Assembly (NCBI RefSeq): GCF_003544855.1 | Contig: NZ_CP032101.1 | Span: 1,922,001 to 1,986,000, forward strand | Source: Malaciobacter marinus | Lineage (GTDB): Bacteria; Campylobacterota; Campylobacteria; Campylobacterales; Arcobacteraceae | DNA: 64,000 nucleotides | Direction of reading: 5' to 3' | Part shown: positions 2 through 18,758 of the stretch, piece by piece | Layout of the letters: each line of letters starts with the position of its first letter | How positions within the stretch are numbered: the first letter of the stretch is position 1 | Notes under the pieces: model-generated | The model's input: the letters and a program-made list of their open reading frames with translations, nothing else | Told to the model about the DNA's origin: nothing | Database searches by the model: none | Program-made: the position numbers and the translations under genes

Positions 2-1951
2 TACGAAAATGCTTCAGTTACAAGAAATAAGATGAGTATTAAACAAACTCCTATGACTATTGATACTTTAAATATTCAAAAAAACAAAAACTATGGAACA
101 AATGACTTAAGTTCAATATTAGAAGGAAATGCTGGTATTGATACTACATATGATATGAGAAGTGATAATATTTTTATTAGAGGTTTTAGAGCTGATACAA
201 ATGATATTTATAGAGATGGTATTAGAGAAAGTGGACAAGTAAGAAGAAGCACTGCTAATATTGAAAGGGTTGAGATACTAAAAGGACCTGCTTCATTGCT
301 TTATGGAAGAAGTAATGGTGGAGGAGTTATTAATATGGTAAGTAAATATGCAAACTTTGATAATTCTAGTAATGTTGGTGTTTCAATAGGTTCTTGGAAA
401 AATAAAGGAGCAAACCTAGATGTAAATCAAGTAGTAAATGAAAATGTTGCAATTAGAATTGTAAGTGATGTGACAAAAGGTGAAACATTTAGAAATAGTA
501 TTCAAAAAGATATTGAAAATGAAAGTAAAATGTTCTCTCCAAGTATTACTATTTCAAACAATGATAATTTGAAATGGACAGCTCAATATACTTATGATTA
601 TGCAAAAAGAACACCTGATAGAGGTCCTAATAAAGCACAATATGACTTAATGGATATCTCTTATGATAAAGCTTTTGCTCATGATGGAGATTATGTAAAA
701 GATAGATTACAAATATTAAGATCAAGTTTAGATTATCAAATAAATGATAAATGGAGTTTAAACTGGGCAGCTGCATATAGAAAAGCAGAACAAAATTTTG
801 ACCATTACTATTTAGGTAGCTATGACCCTTCTACTAAACTTTTAAATCAAAGCTATGCATGGCAAAACACAGAAAACAAAACTATTTCAAATACATTAAC
901 ACTTAATGGTGAAGTAAGAACAGGTAATATTTTACATAACCTAACTTTTGGAGTTGATTATAGTAAAGAAAAAAGAAACCCAGAGTTATACTATACAAGA
1001 AACCAATTTTTTGATCCTTTTGACTCTTCTTCATGGACAAGAACTCAAAAAAAAGATGCACTTATAAAAAATGAGCATGAGGGAATTTCAAAAGGTATTT
1101 TCTTAGAAGATGTTATCTCTTTAACTGCTTCTTTAAAACTAGTTTTAGGTGGAAGGTTTGATAAATACTCTTTTAATTCTTCTGATATTTCAAATAATAA
1201 TAGTTCATATGATGGTGATTCATTTAGTCCAAGAGTAGGAGTTGTTTATGATATTAATCAAAATCACACTATTTATACTTCATATAATAAAAGCTTTTCA
1301 CCATATGGAGGAAATAACTATTTAGGAGTAAGTGCAAGTAAAGATTCTAGTACTTTTAATGATGAACCAGAATATAATGAACAGTATGAAGTAGGAATTA
1401 AAAGTGATTGGTTTGATAACAAACTAAGTAGTACTTTTTCTTTATATCAAATTGAACATTTTAATATTAGATATAGACCTGATTGGGAAACTGATTTAAC
1501 AAAATGGTACCAAAGAGGGAAAGAGAGATCAAGAGGAGCAGAACTAAGTATAATTGGTCAAGTTTATGAAGACTTTTATCTAAGAGCTTCTATAGGGGCA
1601 ATGCAAGCAAAAGTTATAAAAGATAAATCAAATCCTGATAATGAAGGTAATTACTTAAGTAATACTGCAAATATCAATGGAAATATTTTTGTAAGATATG
1701 CACCTTCATCAAAAAACTTCTATACAGAACTTGGAGTTACACATGTAGGAAAAAGATACTTCTATGATAGAAGTGGAAATGAAAGTACTTTAGATAGTTT
1801 CAATAGAGTAGATTCATTACTAGGGTGGAAATATAAAGATGTAAATATTACACTTGGTATTTTAAATCTATTTGATAAAGATTATTGGAGATCAAGTACA
1901 ATGCCAGGAGCATCAAGATCAGCAACTTTAAGACTTAATTATAAGTTTTAA
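2..1951 (+). CDS. TonB-dependent siderophore receptor (5' end outside window)
   Basis: Outer-membrane ligand-gated channel that imports a ferric siderophore or similar ligand using TonB energy. The frame is open to the left edge, so the first ATG at position 32 is internal and the signal peptide, TonB box and true start lie outside the window. The visible 649 residues begin in the plug domain, with the family motif VEILKGPASLLYGRSNGGG at about residues 90-108, followed by a beta-barrel of alternating aromatic strands ending in a terminal Phe (NYKF), as expected for Bam-dependent insertion. Substrate cannot be read from the sequence. A hairpin terminator follows at once. The family call is secure; the ligand is unknown. 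Confidence 0.93.
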   Translation, partial: YENASVTRNKMSIKQTPMTIDTLNIQKNKNYGTNDLSSILEGNAGIDTTYDMRSDNIFIRGFRADTNDIYRDGIRESGQVRRSTANIERVEILKGPASLLYGRSNGGGVINMVSKYANFDNSSNVGVSIGSWKNKGANLDVNQVVNENVAIRIVSDVTKGETFRNSIQKDIENESKMFSPSITISNNDNLKWTAQYTYDYAKRTPDRGPNKAQYDLMDISYDKAFAHDGDYVKDRLQILRSSLDYQINDKWSLNWAAAYRKAEQNFDHYYLGSYDPSTKLLNQSYAWQNTENKTISNTLTLNGEVRTGNILHNLTFGVDYSKEKRNPELYYTRNQFFDPFDSSSWTRTQKKDALIKNEHEGISKGIFLEDVISLTASLKLVLGGRFDKYSFNSSDISNNNSSYDGDSFSPRVGVVYDINQNHTIYTSYNKSFSPYGGNNYLGVSASKDSSTFNDEPEYNEQYEVGIKSDWFDNKLSSTFSLYQIEHFNIRYRPDWETDLTKWYQRGKERSRGAELSIIGQVYEDFYLRASIGAMQAKVIKDKSNPDNEGNYLSNTANINGNIFVRYAPSSKNFYTELGVTHVGKRYFYDRSGNESTLDSFNRVDSLLGWKYKDVNITLGILNLFDKDYWRSSTMPGASRSATLRLNYKF

Positions 1952-10392: not shown

Positions 10393-10436
10393 TAACTAAA
10401 AAATGAATTTTCAAAGTAAATATCCCGTAAATTAAT

Positions 10437-10517
10437 ATTTTCGATTTTTTTTCTACATTTTTTATTTATACTTCCCAAACATAAAAAATAAAACTACTTA
10501 TAAATATTTAGTTTTAT
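10437..10517 (+). promoter_or_regulatory. Predicted promoter and leader of the first porin gene
   Basis: T-rich blocks at about 11-base spacing (TATTTTCGATT, TTTTTTCTACA, TTTTTTATTTA) run into TATACT at 10467-10472. The first block is near-identical to the repeats in the torA promoter. The leader contains a 9-bp inverted repeat (10488-10496 with 10509-10517) that could form a 5' hairpin about 25 bases before the start codon. Confidence 0.4.
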
Positions 10518-10541
10518 TTAATTATACACAAAGGAAATGAT

Positions 10542-11699
10542 ATGAAATCTATTAAGTTAAGTCTAATTACTGCTTTAGCAACAACTGTATGTAATACAGC
10601 TAGTGCCAATAGTTTACAAGAAGCATTAACAAGTGGAAAAGTAAGTGGAGAGTTTGCCGTAACATATGAAACAAGAGATCAAAATAAAGAAATCTCTAAT
10701 TATTATCAAGACACTGCTTATAGTGTAGGTTCTTTTGCATTAAAATATGAAACAGCAAAATGGAATAATCTTAGTCTAACAGCTAAATTTAGAGCTTATA
10801 AAACTCTATTTGAAGATGATGATAAATCTATAACTAGTACAGGTAAAGGTGATGCTAGTGAAAGATTTTATAAAACTGGAAGCGAAAAAGACATTGATGC
10901 AGAAGAGTTATTTTTAGCATATGATTTAAATAACTTACATATTAAAGCAGGTAGACAATTTATCTCTACTGAATGGATTAATAAAACTCAAGATGCAATA
11001 AGCTTATATTATGATATCAATAATACAAGTATTGAAGCAATCTGGTCAAGTAGACATGGTAGGGTTTATGCAAGAGATTATAGACCTATGACTCATATCA
11101 ACAAAGAAAATGGTGGTGTATATAAATTAGGTGTTACACAAAAATTAAGTGATTCATTTTCTATAAAAGCTTATGGAGTAACAGCACCATCATTAAAAGA
11201 TATTTATGGTGGAAAAATCAACTATAAATATAGTATAAACAATATTAAGTTTGGCGCAATGGCACACTATGCAGACTTAGATGAAGATGATACTAATTTA
11301 CAAGATAGTAATATTTTAGAATTAAAAACATTTGCTACAATTAATGGATACACAGCAACACTTGGATATGTACAAATTGATGAAGATGCTGCATTTAACC
11401 ATATTGCAGGAGAGACTATCATTCCTTTTGAAGAAGGTGATCAAATGTTCTTAAAAGATGCAAAAACTACTTATGCAATGTTAAGTAAATCTTTTGGAAA
11501 TTTAAGTTTAACAGCCTTGTATGGAATTACTGATTATGAAAAAGATTTTGATAAAGATGAGTTTAACTTATGGGCAACATATCAATTTAACAAAAACTTT
11601 AAACTAAATGTAGGATATGCACTAACTAATGAAGATAATAAAGATGCAAACACTACTGATTTAAATCAATTAAATGCAACTTTAGTTTACTCATTTTAA
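10542..11699 (+). CDS. Opr-family outer-membrane porin, first tandem copy
   Basis: A 385-residue porin with signal peptide (about 1-22, cleavage after ASA) and mature N-terminus near NSLQEALTSGKVSGE, a motif typical of Campylobacterota Opr/major outer membrane porins. The rest alternates short amphipathic strands with acidic loops and ends in LVYSF with a terminal Phe. Good AAAGGAA ribosome binding site. Forms a general diffusion channel by family knowledge. It is a paralogue of the porin at 11974-13146: signal peptide, first 80 residues and C-terminus are nearly identical, the middle diverges. Confidence 0.92.
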   Translation: MKSIKLSLITALATTVCNTASANSLQEALTSGKVSGEFAVTYETRDQNKEISNYYQDTAYSVGSFALKYETAKWNNLSLTAKFRAYKTLFEDDDKSITSTGKGDASERFYKTGSEKDIDAEELFLAYDLNNLHIKAGRQFISTEWINKTQDAISLYYDINNTSIEAIWSSRHGRVYARDYRPMTHINKENGGVYKLGVTQKLSDSFSIKAYGVTAPSLKDIYGGKINYKYSINNIKFGAMAHYADLDEDDTNLQDSNILELKTFATINGYTATLGYVQIDEDAAFNHIAGETIIPFEEGDQMFLKDAKTTYAMLSKSFGNLSLTALYGITDYEKDFDKDEFNLWATYQFNKNFKLNVGYALTNEDNKDANTTDLNQLNATLVYSF

Positions 11700-11701
11700 T
11701 T

Positions 11702-11725
11702 ATATACTCCTTCCAAGGAGTATAT
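11702..11725 (+). terminator. Hairpin just after the first porin stop codon
   Basis: Inverted repeat ATATACTCCTT / AAGGAGTATAT. It lacks a U-tract immediately downstream, so it may act as a 3' mRNA stabiliser rather than a terminator; the structured element that follows may complete the 3' UTR. Confidence 0.5.
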
Positions 11726-11728
11726 TAA

Positions 11729-11840
11729 GAGTATAGAACTGCCTCTGAAAAAATTATATAATTTTTATTAGTTTCCCTTACTATAAGAAGTTTTTAGCGA
11801 ATTTAACTTCATAATCTCCTTCAGAGGTAGTTCTATGCTC
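11729..11840 (+). ncRNA. Structured RNA-like element, copy 1 (porin 3' region)
   Basis: A 21-bp closing stem pairs 11729-11749 with 11820-11840 with two G-U wobbles. Inside are a UCCCUU segment and a second hairpin (GAAGTT 11787-11792 with AACTTC 11805-11810) whose loop contains GCGAATTT. A second copy follows the next porin at 13177-13295. The two copies share loop sequence but change stem bases in compensating pairs, indicating selection on structure. I do not recognise a named RNA family. It may be a porin 3' UTR element, an independent small RNA or a cis element for the following gene; orientation is assumed. Confidence 0.6.
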
Positions 11841-11898
11841 TATTTAAAAGTTTTTACTTAATACACAAAAAATTTACTTTTTAGACCCACTGATTAAT

Positions 11899-11904
11899 TA
11901 TAAT
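11899..11904 (+). promoter_or_regulatory. Possible -10 element of the second porin gene
   Basis: Perfect TATAAT about 70 bases upstream of the chosen ATG, within an AT-rich stretch. It would let the second porin be expressed independently of the first. Confidence 0.4.
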
Positions 11905-11973
11905 TTGAAAATAAACTTAATTTTACCAATTACTGTAAAAATAAAGTTTAAACACTTTGGAAAAAGGAAAACA

Positions 11974-13146
11974 ATGAAAAGTATCAAATTAAGCTTAATT
12001 GCTTCATTAGCTTTAAGTGCATGTACATTCGCGAGTGCAAATAGTTTACAAGAAGCTTTAACAAATGGAAAAGTAAGTGGAGAAGTTGCAGTTACTTATG
12101 AAACAAGAAATGTTGATGAAAAAGTAGGAAACTATTATCAAGACACTGCTTATAGTGTTGGTTCATTTGCATTAAAGTATGAGACAGGCGTTTGGAATAA
12201 TCTTAGTTTAACTACTAAATTTAGAGCATATAAAACTCTATTTGAAGATAATGATAGCCTTGAAACTTGGAAAGGTAGTGGTGATGCTAGTGAGAGATTT
12301 TATGAAAATGGTGATGAAAAAGACATTGACGCTGAAGAGTTCTTTGTAAAATACCAATATGATAATTTCACACTTAAAGCTGGTAGACAATTTATTGTTT
12401 CTGATTGGTTTGCAAAAACACATGATGCAGTTAAACTTGATGCAGTATTTGGTGATACAGCAGTTGAAGCAATCTGGTCTAAAAAAATTGGTAGAGTTTA
12501 TGCAAGAGATTATAGACCTATGGAAAATATCAATGATAGTAAAGGTGCATATAAATTAGGTATTACTCATAAATTCAATGATAATATCAAAGCAACTGTT
12601 TATGATGTATATTTACCAGATAATCACTACAAATTAGGTGGAAGATTAAATCTTGATTATGATAAATTCTCTATTAGAGCAGATTATGTTCAACAAAAAA
12701 TGGATGATGATTTAAATAAAGATGATACAGACTTTTTTCACTTAAAAGCTAGTACAAAAATCCTTGGAGTTAATGCAGCTATTGGTTATGCAAAAGTTGG
12801 AGATGACAAAGACCCATTTATTGGATATGGAGCAGCTGGAGAGTCTTTAAGTCCATTTGAAGAAGGTGATGCTTTTTATTATAGAAATGCAGAGACTTAC
12901 TATGCAAGCTTAAGCAAATCATTTGGTGATTTAAATGCTACTTTAATTTATGGAATCTTTAACGACTATAAGACAGACTCACAAGAAGAGTATGATGCTG
13001 AAGAAACAACTTTATGGTTAGGATACAAAGTATCTGATAATATCAAAGCAAATGTTGGATACACATACTTTAATACAGATGATGTAAATGGTTGGGTTGG
13101 TTCTGATATGAATCAATTAAACGCTACATTAGTATATAGTTTCTAA
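11974..13146 (+). CDS. Opr-family outer-membrane porin, second tandem copy
   Basis: A 390-residue porin. I chose the ATG at 11974 rather than the in-frame one at 11905: it has an AAAAGGAAA ribosome binding site and begins a signal peptide (MKSIKLSLIASLAL..., cleavage after ASA) matching the upstream paralogue. Mature start NSLQEALTNGKVSGE; C-terminus LVYSF with the terminal Phe needed for outer-membrane insertion. Divergence from copy 1 is concentrated in predicted surface loops and in the central strands, suggesting different pore selectivity. Followed by its own hairpin and structured element. Confidence 0.92.
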   Translation: MKSIKLSLIASLALSACTFASANSLQEALTNGKVSGEVAVTYETRNVDEKVGNYYQDTAYSVGSFALKYETGVWNNLSLTTKFRAYKTLFEDNDSLETWKGSGDASERFYENGDEKDIDAEEFFVKYQYDNFTLKAGRQFIVSDWFAKTHDAVKLDAVFGDTAVEAIWSKKIGRVYARDYRPMENINDSKGAYKLGITHKFNDNIKATVYDVYLPDNHYKLGGRLNLDYDKFSIRADYVQQKMDDDLNKDDTDFFHLKASTKILGVNAAIGYAKVGDDKDPFIGYGAAGESLSPFEEGDAFYYRNAETYYASLSKSFGDLNATLIYGIFNDYKTDSQEEYDAEETTLWLGYKVSDNIKANVGYTYFNTDDVNGWVGSDMNQLNATLVYSF

Positions 13147-13150
13147 ATTT

Positions 13151-13172
13151 ATGCGCTCCTTTTGGAGTGCAT
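13151..13172 (+). terminator. Hairpin just after the second porin stop codon
   Basis: A 9-bp stem (ATGCGCTCC / GGAGTGCAT, one G-U) with a TTTT loop, in the same position as the hairpin after the first porin. No U-tract follows. Confidence 0.5.
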
Positions 13173-13176
13173 ACTT

Positions 13177-13295
13177 AGGTCATAAAACTGCCTCTGGAAC
13201 ATTTTTATTGTCCCTTTTTGTTTCTTGATTTTTTATCTTCAGATGTTTATTGCGAATTTTACATCTTAAGAGTTTCAGGGGTAGTTCTATGACCT
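13177..13295 (+). ncRNA. Structured RNA-like element, copy 2 (porin 3' region)
   Basis: The closing stem pairs 13177-13200 with 13272-13295 over 24 positions with one A-C mismatch. The internal hairpin is AGATGT (13241-13246) with ACATCT (13261-13266), extended by CTT/AAG, with a GCGAATTT-containing loop as in copy 1. The closing-stem core AACTGCCTCTG is identical to copy 1 while the stem base covaries (GAGTAT/ATGCTC in copy 1, GGTCAT/ATGACC here). GGAAC at 13196-13200 could alternatively pair with TGTCCC at 13210-13215. TATTTT after the stem could support termination. Family unknown. Confidence 0.6.
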
Positions 13296-13428
13296 ATTTT
13301 CTTAAAATTATAATTTTTTCTTATAATAATCTCCAATCTAGTTTTTCAATTTTTGTGACATTTTAATAACAAACAACCTTTTTACGGTAATCTCTAAAAA
13401 AAGAAATTTCATTTTTTTAAGTATATAT

Positions 13429-13481
13429 TATAATATTTTAAGTTTTAATATCTTAATATTTCAATAACGATTATCATAATT
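13429..13481 (+). promoter_or_regulatory. Predicted feo promoter with Fur-box-like operator
   Basis: Perfect TATAAT at 13429-13434 followed by a 19-base site at 13463-13481 (AATAACGATTATCATAATT) that matches the classical Fur consensus at 14 of 19 positions by my count. Placement just downstream of the -10 fits iron-dependent repression of feoAB. Confidence 0.6.
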
Positions 13482-13496
13482 ACTAAAGGTTATATT

Positions 13497-13733
13497 TTGA
13501 ATAAAAAAATGATTATGCTTGATACTTTATCAAAAGGTCAAAAAGCAAAAATAAAAAAAATAAGAACAGATGGAAAACTTTTAAGAAGATTATTAGACAT
13601 GGGCTTTGTTATGAATAGTGAGATTGAAGTTATTAGAGAAGCGCCTTTATTTGATCCAATGGAATTAAAAATACAAAATTATTACATAAGTATTAGAAAA
13701 AGTGAAGCTTCTTTAATTGAGGTTAAAATATGA
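13497..13733 (+). CDS. feoA: Ferrous iron transport protein A
   Basis: A 78-residue SH3-like FeoA, a small cytoplasmic partner of FeoB. Typical elements are LRRLLDMGF and the hydrophobic C-terminal strand ending in EASLIEVKI. The start is a TTG: AAAGG at 13485-13489 is 7 bases upstream of it, whereas the next ATG (13509) would be 19 bases away. The stop overlaps the feoB start (ATGA), indicating translational coupling. Probably iron-regulated via the Fur-like site upstream. Confidence 0.9.
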   Translation: MNKKMIMLDTLSKGQKAKIKKIRTDGKLLRRLLDMGFVMNSEIEVIREAPLFDPMELKIQNYYISIRKSEASLIEVKI

Positions 13734-16216
13734 AACAAATAAAAGTAGGTCTTGCAGGTCAACCAAATTGTGGTAAATCTACAATTTTCAACCTTGTAAG
13801 TGGAATTGAACAACACATTGCAAACTATCCAGGGGTAACAGTAGATAAAAAAGTTGGATTTTTCAAATATGAAGATTACAAAGTTGAAATGGTAGATTTA
13901 CCTGGAACATACTCTTTTAGCTCATTTTCACAAGAAGAAAAAGTTGCAAAAAAGTTTATAATTGATGAGAGTAATCCTAATTCAAAAGAAAAAAGTATTG
14001 ATATTATTGTAAATGTAATTGATTCTTCAAACTTAAAAAGAAATCTTTACCTAACATTTCAACTTTTAGAAATTGGTATTCCTGTTATTGTTGTATTAAA
14101 TATGATTGATATAGCAAAAAACAGAGGATTAGAAATAGATTCTAAAAAGATTTCTAAAATGCTTTCTTGCCCAGTTGTTGAAACAAGTGGTTCAAAAAGT
14201 ATTGGTGGAAAAGAGCTTATGCAAACTATTACAAATACTTTTGAAAAAAAGACTAAATATGAAGAGTTTAAAATAAACTATGAAGAGTTAGAAGTTCATA
14301 TTCAAAAGATTGAAAAACTTTTAGAAAATAGTAAAAGCCACCTAAGTAAAAGATGGCTTGCAATCAAACTACTTGAAGAAGATCCAACTATTTTAGAACA
14401 TGTTGGCTCAAATATAAAAAAAGAGGAAATAGATAAAGAAATAGAGAGTTTTCATACACTTCATGATAAAGATACCATCTCTTTTCTAGCAACATTTAGA
14501 TATGACTCTGCTGATGTAATATATCATGAGTGTGTAAAAAATAATAATATAAATAAAGAAACCTTAACAGATAAAATTGACAAAATAGTATTAAATAGAA
14601 TATTTGCAATACCAATTTTATTATTTATAATATTTTTAGTTTACGAAATATCAATTGTTTATGGATATAAACTTACAGATTACACATGGCCAATATTAGC
14701 CTCAATGAAAAATTTTATTATTGATATATTGCCAATGGCTGACTTTACAAAAGTTCCTATGATAACAGATTTTTTTATCTGGATGACAAATAGTTCAATT
14801 GCATTATTAAACTATATCCCAATATTTTTTATTCTATTTGCATTGATTGCTATTATGGAAGATGTAGGCTATATGCCAAGAATGGCTTTTATTCTTGATA
14901 AAATCTTTAAAAAATTTGGTTTACATGGACAATCTACTCTTCCTTTAGTATTAGGTGGAGCAATGGTAGGTGGTTGTGCAGTTCCTGGTGTTATGTCAAC
15001 AAAAGGAATTAGTGATGAAAGAGCAAGAATGGCTACAATATTAACAGTTCCATATATGAATTGTCTTGCAAAAGTGCCTTTTTATACACTTTTATTAGGA
15101 GCTTTTTTCAAACCAGAAATGGCACTTATGATGTTTTTCATTTCAACAATTACTATTTTTATTGCATTATTAATTGCAAAACTTTTAACAACAACAGTTT
15201 TAAAAACAAGACAAACAGCTCCTTTTGTAATGGAATTACCACCTTATCATGTTCCAACAATTAAAGGTGTTTTTATAAGATCTTTTCAAAAGGTGTGGAT
15301 ATATATTAAAAAAGTTGTAACTATTGTCTTAGCAGTAGCAGTTATACTATTTGCAATGTTAGAGTTTCCAGGATTAAGTGAAGACTCAATTTTAAAGTAT
15401 GAAAAACAATCAGAAATATACTTAGCGAAATTTGATAAACAAATTAAAAATAATAAATATTATCAATTAGTAGATACAAAAAATGAGGTATCTGATTTAT
15501 TAAATTATTATGATAGATATAGAGCAAAAAGAATGGCAGCTACTTCAAAAGAAGATGCAAAACAACTTGATAAAAAATTCAAACTTATAAATGCAGATTA
15601 TTATACATTCTTAAAACCAAGAAAAAATAAAGAAGCAAAAAAAATAAACAGAGCTATTAGAAAACTTTCAAGAGATAGAAAAAAAGTTTTAAGAGAGATG
15701 AAAAATGAAAAAATTGAAAATTCAATACTTGGAATGACTGGAAGATCTTTAGAACCAATTACTCAATACGCTGGGTTTGATTGGAAAATAAACGTAGCAT
15801 TTTTAAGCTCTTTTGCAGCAAGGGAGAGTGCAGTTGCAACTCTTGGAAGTATTTATGAAAATAACAAAGCCGATTCTAAAAGAGCAGAAGAAGCAATGGC
15901 TGAGAATAGTGGTTATACTCCATTACATGCAGCTGCAATTATAATTTTCATGATTCTTACTCCACCTTGTATTGCAACTATGATTGTAGTAAAAATGCAA
16001 ACAAATAGTTACAAATGGATGGTATTTGCAATATTTTTCCCTGTGTTTTTAGGTATTGCAATGTCTTCTTTAACTTTTACAGTTGGAAATATTTTCTCCT
16101 TAAGTGGAGTAGAAGCAATGGCAGCATTCTATTTTGCAATAGTTTTTATTACTCTTATTTTGGCTTTTTATCCAAGTAAAAGTATAAACTGGAAAGGAGG
16201 ACTAAATAAAGTCTAA
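13730..16216 (+). CDS. feoB: Ferrous iron transporter B with charged insertion
   Basis: An 828-residue inner-membrane Fe(II) transporter with an N-terminal G-protein domain: G1 GQPNCGKS (residues 10-17), G3 DLPGTYS, G4 NMID. Next come a helical spacer and membrane helices with the two Gate regions (the first includes LPLVLGGAMVGGCAVPG, with the conserved Cys). Longer than many FeoB proteins because of a Lys/Glu-rich, probably coiled segment of about 110 residues at roughly 557-665, between predicted membrane helices. The second Gate region follows (SFAARESAVATLGSIY). First large gene of an operon continuing to about 17615. Confidence 0.95.
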   Translation: MKQIKVGLAGQPNCGKSTIFNLVSGIEQHIANYPGVTVDKKVGFFKYEDYKVEMVDLPGTYSFSSFSQEEKVAKKFIIDESNPNSKEKSIDIIVNVIDSSNLKRNLYLTFQLLEIGIPVIVVLNMIDIAKNRGLEIDSKKISKMLSCPVVETSGSKSIGGKELMQTITNTFEKKTKYEEFKINYEELEVHIQKIEKLLENSKSHLSKRWLAIKLLEEDPTILEHVGSNIKKEEIDKEIESFHTLHDKDTISFLATFRYDSADVIYHECVKNNNINKETLTDKIDKIVLNRIFAIPILLFIIFLVYEISIVYGYKLTDYTWPILASMKNFIIDILPMADFTKVPMITDFFIWMTNSSIALLNYIPIFFILFALIAIMEDVGYMPRMAFILDKIFKKFGLHGQSTLPLVLGGAMVGGCAVPGVMSTKGISDERARMATILTVPYMNCLAKVPFYTLLLGAFFKPEMALMMFFISTITIFIALLIAKLLTTTVLKTRQTAPFVMELPPYHVPTIKGVFIRSFQKVWIYIKKVVTIVLAVAVILFAMLEFPGLSEDSILKYEKQSEIYLAKFDKQIKNNKYYQLVDTKNEVSDLLNYYDRYRAKRMAATSKEDAKQLDKKFKLINADYYTFLKPRKNKEAKKINRAIRKLSRDRKKVLREMKNEKIENSILGMTGRSLEPITQYAGFDWKINVAFLSSFAARESAVATLGSIYENNKADSKRAEEAMAENSGYTPLHAAAIIIFMILTPPCIATMIVVKMQTNSYKWMVFAIFFPVFLGIAMSSLTFTVGNIFSLSGVEAMAAFYFAIVFITLILAFYPSKSINWKGGLNKV

Positions 16217-18477: not shown

Positions 18478-18552
18478 TGGCTCCGGATACTGGATTCGAA
18501 CCAGTGGCCAAGTGATTAACAGTCACCTACTCTACCGCTGAGCTAATCCGGA
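18478..18552 (-). tRNA. tRNA-Asn (GTT), copy 3 in transcription order
   Basis: 75 bases including an encoded CCA. Acceptor stem TCCGGAT/ATCCGGA, discriminator G, anticodon loop CTGTTAA (anticodon GTT), T loop TTCGAAT. Identical to the other two copies. Confidence 0.97.
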
Positions 18553-18577
18553 ACATATGATAAGTTTTATTAGATTA

Positions 18578-18652
18578 TGGCTCCGGATACTGGATTCGAA
18601 CCAGTGGCCAAGTGATTAACAGTCACCTACTCTACCGCTGAGCTAATCCGGA
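18578..18652 (-). tRNA. tRNA-Asn (GTT), copy 2
   Basis: Identical 75-base sequence with encoded CCA, separated by 25 bases from the downstream copy and 31 from the upstream copy. The spacers are not similar to each other. Confidence 0.97.
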
Positions 18653-18683
18653 ATATATCTAATATAAAGTTTCATTAAAGTTA

Positions 18684-18758
18684 TGGCTCCGGATACTGGA
18701 TTCGAACCAGTGGCCAAGTGATTAACAGTCACCTACTCTACCGCTGAGCTAATCCGGA
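18684..18758 (-). tRNA. tRNA-Asn (GTT), copy 1
   Basis: First of three identical copies, immediately downstream of a consensus promoter; presumably all three are cut from one precursor transcript. Confidence 0.97.

Follow-up and report, generated by a model that had tools for sequence, protein, structure and literature searches.

Small-RNA regulation in the Campylobacterota has been studied mainly in Campylobacter and Helicobacter. Among the small RNAs that derive from mRNA 3' UTRs, CarZ is autoregulatory. The same has been described for OppZ (PMC7398697, PMC9438474), which is made by RNase E (PMC7398697). MalH, a small RNA from the 3' end of malG in E. coli, is described as repressing OmpA and OmpC (PMC8081044, PMC9438474). 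The icaR mRNA of Staphylococcus aureus has a 3' UTR whose UCCCCUG motif has been reported to pair with the Shine-Dalgarno (SD) sequence of the same mRNA and to recruit RNase III (PMC3868564). Processed small RNAs from mRNA 3' ends have also been reported in the transcriptome of Campylobacter jejuni, an Hfq-less species (PMC3656092). In this bacterium, which lacks RNase E, CJnc230 (FlmE) originates from the 3' end of flgE, with which it is conserved, and its release has been ascribed to RNase III, with RNase Y and PNPase also taking part. A single-stranded part of this RNA contains the anti-SD sequence CCUU, and its targets are repressed at the level of translation, at their ribosome-binding sites (PMC11187230).

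The window analysed here, a stretch of 64,000 nucleotides from Malaciobacter marinus, contains two porin genes in tandem, each followed by a hairpin (H1) and then by a structured element (Table 1). The two porins are 55% identical (E 1.1e-119); porin 1 has no Pfam match of its own, and the coordinates of porin 2 refer to a chosen ATG start, the listed open reading frame beginning at a TTG upstream. The home genome, G003 and Malaciobacter halophilus belong to one genus, and the same locus is found in G003 and in the M. halophilus record, M. halophilus having both copies of the element. Upstream of many such porins there are CGATTTTTT-like stretches, often repeated, which lie at 10430-10480 in the window; similar DNA is found upstream of porins in L088, L090, L092, L093, L095 and L100, and these stretches are perhaps a shared promoter or regulator site. 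The spacer between element copy 1 and porin 2 (11860-11970) holds a block, TTACTTTTTAGACCCA... TATAATTTGAAAATAAACTTAATTTTA, that is kept in three genomes (the equivalents in L035 and L041) and is probably the promoter of porin 2. A promoter scan was at chance level, yielding 19 sites where shuffles gave 22.1 on average.

The search of the window with Rfam 15 returned three tRNAs only; their genes lie on the minus strand at 18481-18758, within 280 bases, with identical covariance scores (68.8 bits each). When eight loci were searched against Rfam at E up to 1, three matches were obtained, all of them sub-gathering (36.2/80, 29.8/40 and 26.1/90 bits), and two of these were microRNA-precursor models that coincide with the long stems in G109A and G036A.

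Table 1. Features of the tandem porin locus (positions in the window) and of related loci in other genomes (positions in the locus named)
Feature	Position	Strand	Description
Porin 1	10542..11699	+	385 aa, relative of Campylobacter MOMP-type porin
H1 after porin 1 stop codon	11702..11725	+	Perfect hairpin, 10 bp, without U run
Element copy 1	11728..11841	+	C/U-rich interior and inner hairpin P2 (GCGAAUUU), enclosed by P1, a closing stem of 21 bp
Copy 1 P1 arms	11728-11748 with 11821-11841		21 bp
TTTCCCTT segment, copy 1 interior	11772..11779	+	
Copy 1 inner hairpin arms	11787-11792 with 11805-11810		
Conserved GCGAATTT, copy 1	11797..11804	+	At inner hairpin tip
TCTCCTT, copy 1	11815..11821	+	Anti-Shine-Dalgarno-like, adjoining 3' arm
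Porin 2	11974..13146	+	390 aa, Campylo_MOMP (PF05538), E 5.5e-13
H1 after porin 2 stop codon	13150..13173	+	Perfect hairpin, 10 bp, without U run
Element copy 2	13176..13296	+	C/U-rich interior and inner hairpin (GCGAAUUU), enclosed by a closing stem of 24 bp that has one mismatch
Copy 2 P1 arms	13176-13184 and 13186-13200 with 13272-13286 and 13288-13296		24 bp
GTCCCTTTTT segment, copy 2 interior	13210..13219	+	
Copy 2 inner hairpin arms	13241-13246 with 13261-13266		
Conserved GCGAATTT, copy 2	13252..13259	+	At inner hairpin tip
feoA	13497-13733		Downstream of copy 2
feoB	13730-16216		Downstream of feoA
Tandem elements of G109 and G036	L047 923-1179; L100 1208-1468		Each with UUUUUGCGAAUUU motif
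CTCTCCTAAAATTTC after G063 and G074 porins	L102 1429-1485; L135 about 145-205		In loop of hairpin

The closing stem of the element, P1, has about 15-27 bases per arm and a core, AACUG(C/U)C, that is conserved in its letters as well as in its pairing. In the relatives, too, the arrangement comprises H1, P1 and a C/U-rich interior, in which an inner hairpin tipped by GCGAAUUU is usually present. In the window, AACTGCCTCTG is exact in copies 1 and 2, and with one mismatch allowed one further match appears, formed by the other arm of copy 1. Both copies do form the structured elements described in an earlier note made from the letters of this locus, and they fold far better than shuffled sequence, with z values on the plus strand of -8.0 (copy 1) and -6.5 (copy 2) and none of 200 shuffles as stable. 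The minus strand of both copies also folds well (-5.2 and -6.1), as is expected of any inverted repeat. The compensations which that note had quoted between the copies are correct, at the stem base (GAGTAT/ATGCTC versus GGTCAT/ATGACC) as well as in the inner stem (GAAGTT/AACTTC versus AGATGT/ACATCT). On the other hand, its suggestion that GGAAC in copy 2 could switch between two partners was rejected at equilibrium, where the P1 partners have pairing probabilities of 0.98-1.0 and the alternative reaches at most 0.01, leaving no alternative state for GGAAC.

A covariance-model search of Arcobacteraceae genomes, which the same note had put forward as a check, revealed further copies with preserved pairing. 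Model R1, built from the two window copies and their two G003 counterparts, was run on 104 genomes of the family and, with E at or below 0.01, matched five of them (G000, G003, G001, G118 and G109); all its sense matches lie directly 3' of a porin of the same subfamily. The elements of G036 and G014 were added by reading and scanning the DNA 3' of other porins. In G108 and G110, the assignment was made by eye and relies on a long closing stem whose core reads AGCUGUC...GACAG. These last two, found by neither model (R1 or the second model, R2) and lacking GCGAAUUU, are the least certain members. The G121 element is mostly masked with N, and its right arm alone is readable. When the 25 porin genes scoring above 200 bits are taken as the close MOMP-type porin genes, an element stands directly 3' of 13 of them, which bears out the link with porins seen at the window locus; the elements number 15, two of them assigned by eye and one half masked, and in G109 and G036 two follow one porin in tandem.

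Ten of the 25 close porin genes are without the element, which is therefore dispensable; these are the porins of G101, G105, G088, G100, G084, G072 and G030, the third porins of G000 and G003, and the second porin of G108. After the G063 and G074 porins there is, instead, another type of strong hairpin, whose loop contains CTCTCCT. In G002, G004 and G005, which belong to the same genus as the window, no R1 match was found, and there is no porin of the subfamily, the best matches having 31-32% identity. At the order level, 398 genomes were sampled, and R2 gave matches in five of them with E no higher than 0.1; G003 and G109 are absent from these, presumably because they were not drawn in the sample. 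One of the matches among the 398, in G295 (E 0.067), was taken as chance, the 500 bases read around it being repetitive sequence. A model scan of 25 further porin-downstream or related loci returned nothing beyond the G014 element already known, which matched on both strands, and two matches with E of 0.64 and 0.67, a plasmid search for the element gave no match, and a search of named genomes yielded eight loci, partly on the same contigs as those cited here under G handles.

Mapped on a 21-porin tree, the presence or absence of the element requires four changes, at least three of them forced by well-supported branches, and 28 of 500 label shuffles are as low. An old element lost several times fits this tree equally well as repeated gain. 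In G001, H1 and P1 are nearly identical in the two tails (L041 86-205 and 1469-1588), and the porins themselves are 46% identical; copy 1 of this genome is changed at conserved positions (GCG to GTG), with one C-G pair broken. These sequences suggest that one tail was copied onto the other by gene conversion, and that constraint on copy 1 was later relaxed.

The conservation of pairing was evaluated in an alignment (A7) of nine copies, from which G108, G110, G014, the B copies of G109 and G036, and G121 were left out. The 22 pairs of P1 comprise eight that are invariant, three with one-sided changes, ten with two-sided changes (24 cells) and one with unpaired cells only. Over the nine copies, 95.7% of P1 cells are paired, and the pairing and two-sided values are reached by none of 500 shuffles; slid registers of P1 are paired in 34.5-48.4%. 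The four Malaciobacter copies alone give a weaker signal, with six two-sided pairs (27 of 500 shuffles) and nine cells (0 of 500). On the porin-sense strand, P1 has 19 G-U against four A-C cells, an excess which indicates that the porin-sense RNA is what is conserved, and the model score of copy 1 is 95.9 in sense versus 44.7 in antisense. Fold energy alone leaves the strand undecided. In a set of 15 sequences (14 elements and the G063 hairpin), none of 200 shuffles was as stable as the sense fold in 14 cases and one of 200 in that of G001 copy 1; the antisense folds were likewise matched by at most one shuffle (0 or 1 of 200), and they are slightly more stable than the sense ones in G109B, G036B, G110 and G063. 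Function at the RNA level, which had been proposed from the two paralogues, is reinforced by the compensatory changes over nine copies and by the bias of G-U over A-C, and it is nearly certain that a conserved RNA structure exists.

The same bias, and the two-sided changes at the outer base of the stem, argue against the idea that the element is a DNA-level inverted repeat, whether a mobile element of the MITE or REP type or a protein-binding palindrome. It has to be noted that the arms resemble terminal inverted repeats, with conserved sequence around a variable interior, and that the antisense of the element folds nearly as well as the sense. However, the readable copies share their place and orientation after porins, the spacing between arms ranges from 23 to 74 nt, which is unsuited to a dimer site, and no further copy was found in the home genome, by model or by DNA search, beyond the two at the porins. 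The element is thus no scattered mobile repeat, the outcome that the earlier note had considered damaging to its proposal, and a DNA-level origin of the conservation is highly improbable.

Even less credit can be given to a cis-acting leader, either a riboswitch or an attenuator, of the next gene, which here would be porin 2 or feoAB. In the window as well as in G003, some 200 nt separate copy 2 from feoA downstream, as they might for such a leader. Nevertheless, the next gene downstream, judged from translations, differs between lineages, and the open frames place it in convergent orientation in three cases, namely behind the second porin of G001 and behind the G014 and G110 porins; the GGAAC of copy 2, moreover, has no alternative state in equilibrium folding. 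Control of the next gene, one of the functions initially contemplated, is contradicted by this variation, which indicates that the element belongs with the porin. The readable copies are placed, in sense, just after the porin stop codon and H1, in the position of a 3' UTR, and we infer that the element region is transcribed with the porin mRNA. Inspection of some copies by eye showed no conserved small ORFs on either strand.

The inner hairpin has a stem that differs between lineages and a tip at which GCGAATTT is exact in nine of the 14 readable elements. Variants of this tip are present in G001 copy 1 (GTGAATTT), G014 (GCGAATTA) and G118 (GCTGATTT), and G108 and G110 have no tip motif. Among the four Malaciobacter copies, one of the six inner pairs is two-sided, the family-wide alignment being out of register there. 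A loose GCGAATTT pattern has 55 sites in the home genome, including the two copies; 12 loci were taken, of which three were without the central motif and one was copy 2, and in the other eight no P1-like enclosing stem was seen by eye.

The conservation of GCGAAUUU on inner stems of differing sequence, and that of the closing-stem core in letters as well as in pairing, would be understandable if tip and core bound an RNA-binding protein, which would control the life or translation of the porin mRNA or would itself be titrated by the tail. No Hfq was found above the cut-off in the home genome (one sub-threshold match, E 0.034, has internal stops), so that other binding proteins may serve. Nonetheless, the tip motif is missing in G108 and G110, the folds predicted for G109 and G036 leave it partly paired, and a protein site as the main function of the element is rather unlikely.

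MOMP porins are expected to be highly expressed. The element, located at the 3' end of a gene of this kind, could be only a stabiliser and transcription-end module of an abundant mRNA, with no target in trans, in which H1 and the long stem would block 3' exonucleases and help termination. This possibility is favoured by a run of at least seven T that was seen by eye within a few bases of P1 in G109A, G036A and G108 only, and by the presence of a hairpin just after the stop codon in six of the ten element-less porins (G101, G105, G088, G100, G084 and G072), which suggests that a 3' hairpin is the least that is required. However, no terminator-like sites were found in 10400-13560, and thus at either window copy; neither of these has a stem followed at once by a U run, as intrinsic terminators do. 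Furthermore, a stabiliser needs neither the conserved GCGAAUUU tip (9 of 14 elements) nor a conserved AACUG(C/U)C core in the stem, and it does not account for the general complementarity of the interiors to SD sequences.

This complementarity is the basis for a different proposal. Interiors pair with a generic SD better than their dinucleotide shuffles do, with a summed z of -13.4 over nine lineage groups (0 of 1000 shuffles), and with other representatives, or without the members assigned by eye, the values are -13.7, -10.7 and -11.1 (0 of 1000 each). Exact anti-SD pentamers, namely TCTCC, CTCCT or TCCTT (a motif set after seeing the sequences, in groups that share ancestry), are present in nine of the 14 elements. 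With the first representatives, they appear in seven of the nine lineage groups, against a mean of 2.7 in shuffles (0 of 1000 as high), and with the second representatives in six of nine (17 of 1000 as high); without G108 and G110, the figures are five or four of seven groups, with 7 and 66 of 1000 shuffles, respectively. No exact pentamer was found in copy 2, in both G003 copies or in both G001 copies, the G003 counterpart of copy 1 being without the TCTCCTT segment, and the reversed motif is found in none of the 15 interiors.

A narrower candidate, antisense pairing of each tail with its own porin, arose from a resemblance seen by eye in G108, G118 and copy 2, and its specificity was not supported when compared with shuffles and other start sites. 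The 15 interiors tested against the start site of the own porin came from 14 elements and from the G063 hairpin; 12 of them have a negative z, with P above 0.05 in 14 of the 15, and the own site is first among 19 porin sites for two of the 15. Among 35 start sites of the window, that of porin 2 is 6th for both copies, and that of porin 1 is 21st and 31st. Across the whole porin mRNA, the start site has the best contiguous complementarity, alone or tied, in only two of ten cases (G108 and G118). A 3' UTR motif matching the own SD beyond chance, of the icaR type, was thus not found. Of the 35 window sites, the feoB start gives the copy 1 interior its strongest duplex (-23.2 kcal/mol, 13700-13750 with 11750-11819).

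As a tentative explanation, to which a probability of slightly less than 40% can be given, the element would be a structured 3' UTR of the mRNAs of a MOMP-type porin subfamily, probably processed, and with anti-SD activity. As to its mode of action, we infer that the long double-stranded stem would be both a natural substrate of RNase III, whose gene is present in the home genome, and a 3' barrier, and that the stable tail would either stay attached or be released as an RNA of about 65-120 nt. This tail would expose anti-SD segments (UCUCCUU, UCCCUU and similar), which could mask the ribosome-binding sites of envelope mRNAs, and perhaps those of porin mRNAs too, so that porin transcription would feed back on translation in an Hfq-less cell. 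The purely structural stabiliser and the anti-SD 3' UTR are equally likely, and the latter has been put first because it also accounts for the conserved unpaired parts, even though it leaves the sequence conservation of P1 unexplained. Of the functions initially contemplated, a role in 3' UTR stability and a small RNA are both plausible.

A bolder and more doubtful extension of the anti-SD reading is that these elements constitute a new family of porin-tail RNAs, by which a major outer-membrane mRNA of Hfq-less Campylobacterota would double as a regulator. Under this proposal, RNase III would free the tail, the GCGAAUUU tip and the stem core would recruit a putative chaperone, the anti-SD interior would tune the translation of envelope genes to porin transcription, and the tandem copies, one per porin or two after one, would set the dose.

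Structured or regulatory 3' UTR RNAs are known as a kind, and the present RNA family, its linkage to Arcobacteraceae porins and its architecture appear to be new; the literature search gave no description of a porin 3' RNA in Arcobacter relatives among the matches listed. The elements thus represent a structurally supported RNA family of the Arcobacteraceae, tied to a porin subfamily and without an Rfam entry, and they offer a concrete object for testing porin mRNA 3' ends as regulators in Hfq-less bacteria. The presence of covarying paralogues in one genome allows, in addition, a simple mutant design.

When compared with the systems described above, the element resembles CJnc230 in its location 3' of the gene for a major surface structure, in its conservation together with this gene and in the combination of stem-loops with an anti-SD segment (PMC11187230). 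However, its parent gene is a porin instead of flgE, a gene context that sets it apart from the CJnc230/FlmE family, and it is made of one long closing stem, whereas CJnc230 is depicted as two stem-loops around a 12-nt single strand. The targets of CJnc230 are reported as proven, and those of the element are putative. With icaR it shares a 3' UTR containing an anti-SD motif of the UCCC type, although icaR is not known to have a structure of the element's kind (PMC3868564); pairing with the own SD was demonstrated there by mutation, and in the element it was computed and not supported. The likeness to OppZ and CarZ would lie in a feedback from the mRNA 3' end onto the own gene; as it is described, OppZ differs in being made by RNase E, and the home genome of the element has no Hfq above the cut-off. 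Finally, both MalH and the element are RNAs of an mRNA 3' end connected with porin control, with the difference that MalH, according to its description, comes from a transporter mRNA, whereas here it is the porin mRNA itself that carries the RNA.
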